NCBI GenBank assembly: GCA_021793235.1
Contig: JAJYTD010000001.1
Span: forward strand, 62,001 to 126,000
Length of the DNA stretch: 64,000 bases
Direction of reading: 5' to 3'
DNA from: Actinomycetes bacterium
Lineage (GTDB): Bacteria > Actinomycetota > Actinomycetes > Streptosporangiales > Streptosporangiaceae
Positions within the stretch are counted from its first letter, which is position 1; each line of letters begins with the position of its first letter. Positions 3,754-14,683 of the stretch are shown here, in pieces. The notes beneath the pieces were generated by a model, which was given only the letters and a program-made list of their open reading frames with translations, made no database searches and had not been told where the DNA came from. The translations under genes were made by a program, and so were the position numbers.

Positions 3754-3804
3754 GTGCAGAGCAACTTCCTCATTCTCGTACTTGGTCAGCGCGCAGTCAG
3801 CTGA
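3754..3804 (+). CDS. ilvB leader peptide (16 residues, Leu/Ile/Val rich)
   Basis: A GTG-started frame encodes (M)[15 protein letters not shown] and stops at TGA 3802. Five consecutive codons, CTC ATT CTC GTA CTT (3769-3783), read all three branched-chain amino acids made by the downstream operon. The ILVLG core is typical of actinobacterial ilvB leader peptides. Translation would act as the sensor: scarce charged Leu, Ile or Val tRNA stalls the ribosome over the control codons. No Shine-Dalgarno is visible, so the message may be leaderless. Confidence 0.82.
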
Positions 3805-3825
3805 CCGAGGTACCGGCTGCGCGCT

Positions 3826-3859
3826 CCCCTCAACCGCACGACGCGGTGAGGGGTTTTTT
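3826..3859 (+). terminator. Intrinsic terminator of the ilvB attenuator
   Basis: CCCCTC-(A)-ACCGC pairs with GCGGT-GAGGGG around the loop ACGAC, followed immediately by six T (3854-3859). It lies between the leader peptide and ilvB, so it can only serve as a conditional terminator. Confidence 0.88.
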
Positions 3860-3905: not shown

Positions 3906-5666
3906 ATGACCGAGCAGATGACCGGAGCCCAATCGCTCATCAGGTCGCTGGAGCATGCCGGCGTCGATGTGGTTTTCGGGATTCCCGGGGGGGCGATCCT
4001 CCCCGCCTACGATCCCCTCTACGACTCCGCGCGTGTACGTCACATCCTCATGCGACACGAGCAGGGCGCCGGCCACGCGGCGGAGGGCTACGCCTATGCC
4101 ACCGGCCGCCCGGGTGTCTGCATGGCGACGAGCGGCCCTGGAGCGACCAACCTCGTGACACCGCTCGCCGACGCGCACATGGACTCCGTTCCCATGGTCG
4201 CCATCACCGGTCAGGTGGCCTCTCCCGCGATCGGTACCGATGCCTTCCAGGAAGCCGACATCTGCGGCATCACAATGCCGATCACCAAGCACAACTACCT
4301 GGTCCGGGACCCCGCTGAGATCCCGCGCACGATCGCCGAAGCGTTCCACATCGCTTCCACCGGCCGGCCCGGCCCGGTGCTGGTGGACATCGCCAAGGAC
4401 GCCCTCCAGCGCCAGACCGAATTCGCCTGGCCGCATCGACTGGACATGCCGGGGTACCGGCCGGTCACCAAGCCGCACGGCAAGCAGGTCCGGGAAGCCG
4501 CCCGAATGATCGCTGAAGCCCGCCGTCCAGTCCTCTACGTCGGCGGCGGTGTGCTGCGCTCCGGCGCCGCACAGGAGTTGCGCGTTCTGGCCGAGCTCAC
4601 CGGCCTGCCGGTCGTCACCACGTTGATGGCGCGCGGAATCTTCCCCGACAGTCATCCCCAGCACCTGGGCATGCCCGGTATGCACGGCAGCGTCACCGCC
4701 GTGGGCTCGCTGCAGAAAGCCGATCTGATCGTCGCGCTGGGCGCCCGCTTCGATGACCGGGTCACCGGCAAGCTGGACAGCTTCGCCCCTGACGCCAAGA
4801 TCGTGCACGCCGACATCGACCCGGCCGAGATCTCCAAGAACCGCCACGCCGATGTGCCGATCGTCGGCGACTGCCGCGAGGTCATCGCCGACCTGGTCGT
4901 CGCGGTCCGCAACGACCAGGCCGAGGGCCGACACGGTGACTACGCCGCCTGGTGGGCGCAGCTCGACCGGCTGCGTGAGGTCTACCCGCTCGGCTATGAG
5001 GAGGCCGACGACGGCAGCCTGTCCCCTCAGCGCGTCATCCAGCGTCTCGGAGAGATCGTCGGGCCGGATGCCGCCTACGTCGCCGGGGTCGGCCAGCACC
5101 AGATGTGGGCCGCGCAGTTCATCGGATATGAGAATCCGGGGACGTTCATCAACTCCGGCGGCCTGGGCACCATGGGCTTCTCCGTCCCGGCCGCGCTCGG
5201 GGCCAAGGTCGGCAACCCGGACCGGACCGTCTGGGCGGTCGACGGCGACGGCTGCTTCCAGATGACCAATCAGGAGCTCGCCACCTGCGCGGTCGAGGGC
5301 ATCCCGATCAAGGTCGCGGTCATCAACAACGGGAACCTCGGCATGGTCCGCCAATGGCAGACGCTGTTCTACGAGGGCCGCTACTCCAACACCAACCTGC
5401 AGACTGCGCCCATGGACGAAAAAGTCCGCATCCCCGACTTCGTCCGCCTGGCGGAGGCATACGGTTGTGTCGGGCTGCGCTGTGACCGCACCGAGGACAT
5501 CGACGCCACCATCGAAAAGGCGATGGCGGTCGACGACGCCCCCGTCGTCATCGACTTCTCCGTCAACCACGACGCGATGGTCTGGCCGATGGTCGGTCCC
5601 GGTATCAGCAACGACAACATCCAGTACGCGCGCGACATGGCGCCCGACTGGGACGACGAGGACTAG
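3906..5666 (+). CDS. ilvB: Acetolactate synthase (acetohydroxyacid synthase), catalytic subunit
   Basis: This 586-residue thiamine-diphosphate enzyme condenses two pyruvates to acetolactate (valine and leucine route) or pyruvate plus 2-oxobutyrate to acetohydroxybutyrate (isoleucine route). The N-terminal domain carries the catalytic glutamate context [13 protein letters not shown]; a central FAD-binding-type domain follows, and the TPP/Mg motif [12 protein letters not shown]...NNGNLGMV is near the C-terminus. The frame is open upstream to 3846, but that would begin inside the attenuator stem. ATG 3906, with GAAGGAT about eight bases before it, is the better start. It heads ilvB-ilvN-ilvC and is controlled by the attenuator just upstream. 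The partner IlvN gives feedback inhibition. Confidence 0.96.
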
Positions 5667-12898: not shown

Positions 12899-12953
12899 AA
12901 GGCGCGGGCGCCCCACCCGGGGGGATGGCCCGCGGGTGTGGCATACTGGTGCC

Positions 12954-12995
12954 GTGCCGTCTCAGGTGATCATTATCGTGAGGCGCGCTGGCTAA
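12954..12995 (+). CDS. cimA leader peptide (13 residues, Val-Ile-Ile-Ile-Val)
   Basis: GTG 12954 begins (M)PSQVIIIVRRAG, ending at TAA 12993. The five central codons GTG ATC ATT ATC GTG (12966-12980) read only valine and isoleucine, the products depending on citramalate synthase or its competing pathway. No Shine-Dalgarno is visible and the position of the -10 box suggests a leaderless message. An upstream in-frame GTG at 12936 is possible. The biased codons and the terminator just behind make this a convincing attenuator peptide. Confidence 0.75.
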   Translation: MPSQVIIIVRRAG

Positions 12996-13015
12996 CCCGG
13001 ACCCGCCAGTGCGCT

Positions 13016-13045
13016 GACCTCTCGTGTCCACGAGGGGTCTTTTTT
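13016..13045 (+). terminator. Intrinsic terminator of the cimA attenuator
   Basis: GACCTCTCGTG (13016-13026) pairs with CACGAGGGGTC (13029-13039) with one T-G wobble, followed by TTTTTT (13040-13045). It is placed before cimA, so termination must be conditional. Confidence 0.85.
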
Positions 13046-13099
13046 ATTGGCCGCGGGCGGTCCACGACCAGACAGCATCCATCTGCGGGAGTTCCACCC

Positions 13100-14683
13100 A
13101 TGCCAGACGACAGTTTCCACGTCTTCGACACGACCCTGCGCGACGGCGCCCAGCGCGAAGGCATCAACCTGACAGTGACCGACAAACTGGCGATCGCGAG
13201 GCTGCTCGACGAGTTCGGCGTGCGTTTCATCGAAGGCGGCTGGCCGGGGGCGAACCCCAAAGACACCGAGTTCTTTCAGCGGGCTGCACAAGAGCTGACG
13301 CTGAAACACGCGCAACTCACCGCGTTCGGCGCGACCCGCCGTTCCGGTGTGCAGGCGGCCGACGACCCCCAGGTCGCCGCATTGCGCGAATCAGGTGCGC
13401 CGGTCGTCACACTGGTGGCCAAGAGCGATATCCGGCACGTCGAACGGGCGCTGCGCACCACCGGCGAAGAGAACCTGGCGATGGTCACCGATACCGTCTC
13501 CCACCTGCGCGAGAACGGCCAGCGGGTGTTCCTCGACTGCGAACACTTCTTCGACGGCTACCTGCACGACCCCGACTACGCGACCAGTGTCGTGCGCGCC
13601 GCTGCGGAGGCGGGCGCGGACGTGGTCGTCCTCTGCGACACCAACGGGGGAATGCTGCCCGCTGACATCGTCCGGGTCGTCACCGAGGTGCGCGAGGCCA
13701 CGGGCGTCCGGCTCGGTATCCACGCCCAGGACGACACCGGATGCGCCGTCGCCAACACCCTCGCCGCCGTCGACGCCGGAGCCACGCACGTCCAGTGCAC
13801 CGCCAACGGGTACGGAGAGCGCGTCGGAAACGCCAACCTGTTCTCCGTGGTGCCGGCACTGGCCCTCAAATACGGCCGCGATGTGCTTCCTGAAGGCTGC
13901 CTGGCGGAAATGACCCGGGTATCCCAGGCCATCGCCGAACTCGTCAACATCGCACCGGCCACCCACCAGCCCTATGTCGGCATCTCGGCTTTCGCGCACA
14001 AGGCCGGGCTGCACGCTTCCGCGATCAAGGTCGACCCCGACCTCTACCAGCACATCGATCCGGCCCTGGTCGGCAACGACATGCGCATGCTGGTCTCGGA
14101 CATGGCCGGCCGCGCCTCGATCGAACTCAAGGCCAAGGAGCTCGGCTTCGACCTGGGCAGCGACCGCGAACTACTCGGCCGTGTCGTGGATCGGGTGAAG
14201 AGCATGGAACTGGCCGGGTACAGCTTCGAGGCGGCCGACGCCTCGCTGGAGCTGCTGCTCCGCGAGGAGCTCGGCGCAAGGGTGCGTTACTTCACGGCGG
14301 AGTCTTGGCGGGTGATCGCCGAACGGCGCGCCGACGGCGCCGCCGTGAGCGAGGCGACAGTGAAGCTGCACATCAAAGGTGAGCGGGTGATCGCCACCGC
14401 CGAGGGCAATGGCCCGGTCAACGCGCTCGACCGCGCCCTGCGCAGCGCCATGGAAGGCGTCTACACCGCATTGGGCGGATTGGAGCTCACCGACTACAAA
14501 GTGCGCATCCTCGAAGGCGCGTCGGGAACCGACGCCGTTACCCGCATTCTGGTCACTTTCAGCGACGGCCGCGGAGAATGGACCACGGTCGGCGTCGGTG
14601 AGAACGTCATCGACGCCTCCTGGATCGCTCTGGAGCAGGCCACGGCCTACGGTCTGCTGCGCCAGGGCTACCCGCACGATTGA
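13100..14683 (+). CDS. cimA: (R)-citramalate synthase
   Basis: The 527-residue acyltransferase condenses pyruvate with acetyl-CoA to (R)-citramalate, opening a threonine-independent route to 2-oxobutyrate and isoleucine. The N-terminal TIM barrel shows the HMGL/IPMS signature FDTTLRDGAQREG, CDTNGG, GIHAQDDTGCAVAN (metal-binding HxH context) and TANGYGERVGNANL. The C-terminal LeuA-type allosteric domain runs from about residue 400. GWPGANPKD and FFDGY are typical of the CimA branch rather than LeuA. ATG 13100 follows GGAG and matches the family N-terminus; the longer frame would run through the attenuator. The leader peptide and terminator upstream suggest control by charged Ile/Val tRNA. Confidence 0.93.
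   Translation: MPDDSFHVFDTTLRDGAQREGINLTVTDKLAIARLLDEFGVRFIEGGWPGANPKDTEFFQRAAQELTLKHAQLTAFGATRRSGVQAADDPQVAALRESGAPVVTLVAKSDIRHVERALRTTGEENLAMVTDTVSHLRENGQRVFLDCEHFFDGYLHDPDYATSVVRAAAEAGADVVVLCDTNGGMLPADIVRVVTEVREATGVRLGIHAQDDTGCAVANTLAAVDAGATHVQCTANGYGERVGNANLFSVVPALALKYGRDVLPEGCLAEMTRVSQAIAELVNIAPATHQPYVGISAFAHKAGLHASAIKVDPDLYQHIDPALVGNDMRMLVSDMAGRASIELKAKELGFDLGSDRELLGRVVDRVKSMELAGYSFEAADASLELLLREELGARVRYFTAESWRVIAERRADGAAVSEATVKLHIKGERVIATAEGNGPVNALDRALRSAMEGVYTALGGLELTDYKVRILEGASGTDAVTRILVTFSDGRGEWTTVGVGENVIDASWIALEQATAYGLLRQGYPHD

Follow-up and report, generated by a model that had tools for sequence, protein, structure and literature searches.

How transcription of cimA is governed is the question raised by the DNA in front of this gene in the window, by which we mean the whole 64,000-nucleotide stretch of actinomycete DNA that was analysed. 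The gene (13100-14683, + strand) encodes citramalate synthase, the enzyme for the first step of the threonine-independent isoleucine pathway. Its identity is given by TIGR00977 (634 bits against a cut-off of 450), and its start codon, ATG 13100, is preceded by a likely ribosome binding site, GGGAG (13087-13091, + strand). No threonine ammonia-lyase was detected in the same genome (G000) above the TIGR01127 cut-off, the sole NCBIfam cut-off applied, the best match of that search being a Ser/Thr dehydratase (PRK08246); hence this organism may make its isoleucine mainly by the citramalate route, through cimA. The upstream region combines a small ORF, in which codons for the pathway product recur, with an intrinsic terminator between that ORF and the gene, and it very probably represents a ribosome-dependent transcription attenuator that senses charged isoleucine tRNA and controls cimA.

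The leader ORF (12954-12995, + strand) opens at GTG 12954 with a 13-codon frame reading MPSQVIIIVRRAG*, or (M)PSQVIIIVRRAG with the stop TAA, and its codons (GTG CCG TCT CAG GTG ATC ATT ATC GTG AGG CGC GCT GGC TAA) contain a Val-Ile-Ile-Ile-Val run. The Ile control codons ATC ATT ATC (12969-12977, + strand) are situated immediately 5' of a stem of 10 perfect pairs, termed P1 (12983-12992/13005-13014, + strand). The 5' arm of P1, a sensor and putative antiterminator stem, falls within the end of the ORF, and the 3' arm is flush with a predicted terminator, T, made of a 10-bp stem-loop (13016-13039, + strand) and a tract of six U (13040-13045, + strand) that ends 54 nt before cimA. Folding gives a minimum energy of -41.9 against -29.8 +/- 3.4 for shuffled sequences (z -3.6). 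An ORF at GTG 12954 with five Val/Ile codons, a 10-bp stem and a T-tailed terminator had been reported in the initial annotation, and all of them are present.

In front of the ORF, CATACT (12942-12947) with a preceding TGG constitutes an extended -10 (12939-12947, + strand) that ends 6 nt before the GTG; a scan of the locus with the sigma-70 consensus, which is weakly informative for actinobacterial promoters, returned no promoter match. Counterparts of the ORF occur in frame in 89 sequences. Their start codons were picked by a rule based on Ile content and -10 score, so the spacing figures are partly selected: in 68/89 leaders a -10-like hexamer (most commonly CAGACT or CACACT) precedes the start codon by 6-7 nt, and in 17/89 by 10 nt. 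This spacing makes the leaders look leaderless or nearly so, and in the window we infer that transcription begins at or beside the GTG and yields a leaderless message.

All parts of the element are kept in close relatives (alignment A3), and conservation of the leader peptide and terminator before cimA, which the initial annotation had set as a test, extends far beyond them. A scan of named genomes with the cimA alignment gave 80 loci, 79 of which were searched with a covariance model; 61 of the 79 have the element ahead of cimA in the same orientation, in Streptomonospora, Nonomuraea, Streptomyces, Kribbella, Micromonospora and Amycolatopsis and further in Pseudonocardia, Kutzneria, Cellulomonas and Demequina. 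Among related genomes, 49 of 55 cimA genes carry it on the same strand, with 20-226 nt (median 53) between its end and cimA. Four of the six element-free related genes, all in genomes of the same family, are divergent (~54% identity) and directly follow leuB (G018, G023, G034 and G035), and no element was seen at the cimA genes of the other two (G046 and G056). Several metagenome-assembled genomes of uncultured actinobacteria likewise have cimA right behind ilvE and lack the element; in most of the element-free cases inspected cimA abuts a preceding leuB or ilvE and its own promoter region is missing. To prevent circularity, model R2 was built solely from other families, leaving out that of the window; in the whole 4.8-Mb genome it gave a single match, at this locus (E 1.3e-17), which argues that the element is not a chance feature. 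As these genome comparisons have it, an attenuator-like unit is conserved through most actinomycetes.

Both stems are supported by covariation. In an alignment of 57 sequences, 97.9% of the cells of P1 and T are paired and double changes occur at 13 of the 20 pairs, with 114 double-change cells observed against 30.1 +/- 5.2 in shuffles; the signal is lost when the partner is shifted by 1-3 columns, and covariation is likewise seen in the subset taken from other families alone. The foot of P1 (GCGCG/CGCGC) is almost unchanged across sequences. A structured, conserved 5' leader is also what a ligand-binding riboswitch, a T-box or a protein-binding leader would present, but there seems to be hardly any chance of such an element here: no Rfam family matched, even at E<=1, in the five loci searched (L001, L031, L033, L089 and L106), and an unpaired core is conserved nowhere but at the Ile codons, the P1 loop varying from 3 to 77 nt (~50 nt in Streptomyces). 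We also rejected two further candidate structures. A protective hairpin enclosing the Ile codons, recognised by eye in Streptosporangiaceae-type sequences and Amycolatopsis, is not universal, and pairing between the leader and the 5' arm of P1 equals that of shuffled sequences; a contact between the P1 loop and the terminator loop (GGAC/GTCC) was seen by eye in some sequences and is absent in others.

The leader peptides point to isoleucine as the signal. At least one Ile is found in 89/89 leaders and an Ile-Ile doublet in 84/89, and over all 89 leaders Ile accounts for 19% of the residues and Val for 5%. Since Ile-Ile alone is constant, the signal sensed is likely Ile-tRNA rather than Val. 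Of the Val-Ile-Ile-Ile-Val run in the initial annotation, Ile is what the 89 leaders conserve; the flanking Val codons are not conserved, and we rejected Val as a co-signal. An in-frame ORF in 89 sequences might instead suggest a small functional protein, with a terminator that just limits cimA. This is very unlikely, because outside the Ile-Ile doublet and the stretch that P1 and its foot specify, both sequence and length vary freely, and several of the peptides have only 8-10 residues (e.g. MTVRQIIF and MYAAVIIP). Codon choice is equally particular: 84 of 144 leader Ile codons (58%) are AUU, against 46 of 1031 (4%) within cimA itself at these loci, and AUU is used for 3 of 95 Ile codons in five genes of this window. 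Because an otherwise rare codon is enriched there, AUU appears to be selected in cimA leaders. The AUU excess was noted for the cimA leaders of L031-L107.

Similar elements are found before other genes of branched-chain metabolism. Within the window, a similar leader ORF (3754-3804, + strand) precedes ilvB, which lies at 3906; model R1 matches at 3774-3859 (E 4.5e-7), where a P1 (3788-3798/3815-3825) abuts a terminator with U-tract (3826-3859), the whole hairpin region spanning 3788-3859 on the + strand. R1 matches in other genomes include leaders of ilvB and leuS, elements that the covariance model recovers in the cimA-type layout, and the flush arrangement of P1 and T is shared by 18 of 20 ilvB elements (gap 0) and 7 of 12 leuS elements. 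In G056, an Ile-Ile leader (MAQHLMIISW..., in full MAQHLMIISWAREPA*) is followed by P1 and a terminator before an ilvA-like threonine ammonia-lyase gene (L165, match about 101-195). The ilvA-like gene of G056 thus carries an Ile-Ile leader while the cimA gene of that genome is without the element. Another Ile-Ile leader, MGSRLIISCGAG*, and a terminator precede an amino-acid dehydrogenase gene of the Glu/Leu/Trp type in G028 (L128, match about 101-180). Outside the class, in other classes of the phylum, the model also matches ilvB leaders, and we found MSFSQVVIIR* before leuB (L183), MSQNLLLT* before a gene with 30% identity to cimA that we read as leuA (L171), and MSASIIIIA*, with four Ile codons, before a divergent cimA (L181); in all three the stop TAG stands immediately 5' of P1. 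The Leu, Val or Ile control codons of the ilvB, leuS, leuA-like, leuB and ilvA leaders agree with the product of the downstream gene. Judged by layout and control codons, the cimA element is a member of a larger family of attenuators, to which the ilvB and leuS leaders already known also belong.

The position of P1 fits the footprint of a ribosome. Most commonly (47/84) the last Ile-Ile doublet begins 11 nt upstream of P1 (range 8-15), and the leader stop codon falls between -3 and +28 nt relative to the start of P1. Counted from the first nucleotide of the codon in the A site, the leading edge of a ribosome lies ~12 nt ahead; at the observed spacing, a ribosome stalled on the doublet would leave P1 free, and from the position of the stop codon a ribosome there would cover most or all of the P1 5' arm. 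We suggest that the ribosome translates the 13-residue leader close behind RNA polymerase. With ample Ile-tRNA it would reach the stop and cover the 5' arm of P1, T would form and transcription would end before cimA. Under a shortage of Ile-tRNA it would stall on the Ile codons with its leading edge at the foot of P1, P1 would fold, T would fail to complete its lower pairs in time and cimA would be transcribed; cimA is thus probably switched on solely under isoleucine shortage. The comparison on which this mechanism is built covers the leader ORF, the conservation of Ile only, both stems, their abutment, the spacing from codons to stem and the other branched-chain genes. In attenuators of the E. 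coli trp/ilv type, termination is likewise decided by the position of the ribosome on control codons; unlike these, the cimA element has a leaderless-type start, a P1 that abuts the terminator and no universal 1:2 protector hairpin.

How a folded P1 might act on T is less clear from the pairing itself. The 10-bp stem of the initial annotation does not compete with the terminator through shared bases and instead abuts T exactly. P1 and T have no nucleotides in common, the gap between them is 0 in nearly all elements, so that antiterminator and terminator bases are adjacent, and in 56 of 57 sequences the base at their junction joins one of the two helices, T as an A-U pair or P1 as C/U with G. 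The two hairpins fold together and coexist in the minimum-energy fold, also when a ribosome is placed on the Ile codons. Searches with both arms of T revealed no overlapping antiterminator of the standard type: upstream pairing of the 5' arm is weaker than that of shuffled sequences (-5.83 versus -6.79 kcal/mol; better than shuffled in 23/87), and that of the 3' arm is no better than shuffled. An antiterminator like that of C. glutamicum ilvBNC, in which AGG/GAGG before P1 would pair with CCTC of the T 5' arm and lengthen P1 into T, is nevertheless suggested by GAGG 12980-12983, which can pair with CCTC 13018-13021 in the window, and by the GCC common to both hairpins of ilvBNC (PMC11857589). 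It is improbable, given that the bases 5' of P1 vary (CAG, CTA, GTA, CGA and others), that the in-register extension pairs are formed in just 13, 20 and 5 of the 57 sequences and that the T 5' arm pairs so poorly upstream; on the same grounds we rejected AGG/CCT pairing as a general feature.

Because P1 and T abut without common nucleotides and no overlapping antiterminator was found, we infer that blocking is a matter of position: P1 ends exactly where T begins, and P1, once closed against the base of T, may impede the last T pairs at the polymerase exit channel, a step to which we give about an even chance. Attenuation could also be real with a P1 that does not itself block T, the stalled ribosome or lost coupling altering termination, or P1 serving as a pause hairpin by which polymerase and ribosome stay synchronised. 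That both hairpins are stable and share no bases speaks for such a reading. We consider it possible though unlikely, as P1 covaries and abuts T in the cimA junctions as well as in ilvB elements, a pause hairpin need not abut, and the stop codons are placed for a ribosome there to cover the P1 5' arm.

Ribosome-gated control by a P1 flush with T finds its nearest parallels in ilvB. Attenuation of this gene has been described, with experimental support, in Corynebacterium and M. tuberculosis, and by comparison with these relatives it is the likely reading at cimA. In M. tuberculosis ilvB1, changing the LVVI codons to alanines gave low, inducer-independent expression (PMC13236596), and for C. glutamicum ilvBNC mutation confirmed the terminator, to which the antiterminator is adjacent (PMC11857589). 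In S. lividans, RNA-seq has the ilvB and leuS leaders starting leaderless (PMC8079986); against a role for control codons, substitutions of S. coelicolor ilvB leader codons were reportedly without effect on regulation (as cited in PMC1262725). The cimA element resembles C. glutamicum ilvBNC and the ilvB-II motif (PMC11857589, PMC10272879) in a leader peptide that starts at or beside the 5' end and has branched-chain control codons, and ilvBNC also in an antiterminator hairpin that adjoins the intrinsic terminator. In ilvBNC, however, the common GCC makes the hairpins overlap, and an anti-antiterminator forms a third hairpin, whereas the cimA element has no bases in common, no universal third hairpin, Ile as its only signal and cimA as its target. 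With M. tuberculosis ilvB1 (PMC13236596) it shares a uORF with control codons and a terminator before the gene; masking of the antiterminator by a ribosome at the stop is experimentally supported there, whereas its cimA counterpart is proposed from sequence, and the LVVI codons and target ilvB1 are replaced by Ile-Ile and cimA. A short leaderless-type peptide, a hairpin and a U-tailed terminator are also common to the actinobacterial ilvB and leuS leaders of Seliverstov et al. 2005 (PMC1262725) and to S. lividans ilvL and leuL2 (PMC8079986), and no cimA element is among those given in the parts of these papers that were covered. We found no description of attenuator or leader-peptide control of cimA or citramalate in a search that covered subscription journals little, and an earlier report is possible.

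It is tempting, if still somewhat doubtful, to regard these leaders as a phylum-wide actinobacterial attenuator class that would achieve antitermination free of base sharing by a ribosome-gated flush hairpin, with rare wobble codons (AUU) as tuned stall sites at a fixed distance and cimA as the isoleucine-only branch. The flush-hairpin layout is unusual, and its occurrence in cimA, ilvB and leuS leaders poses a mechanistic question. As no Rfam family matches it, the element is usable for regulon annotation. In Streptomyces, branched-chain precursors feed antibiotic synthesis, and the proposed control would tie the route from pyruvate through citramalate to isoleucine to Ile-tRNA charging in most actinomycetes, Streptomyces included.
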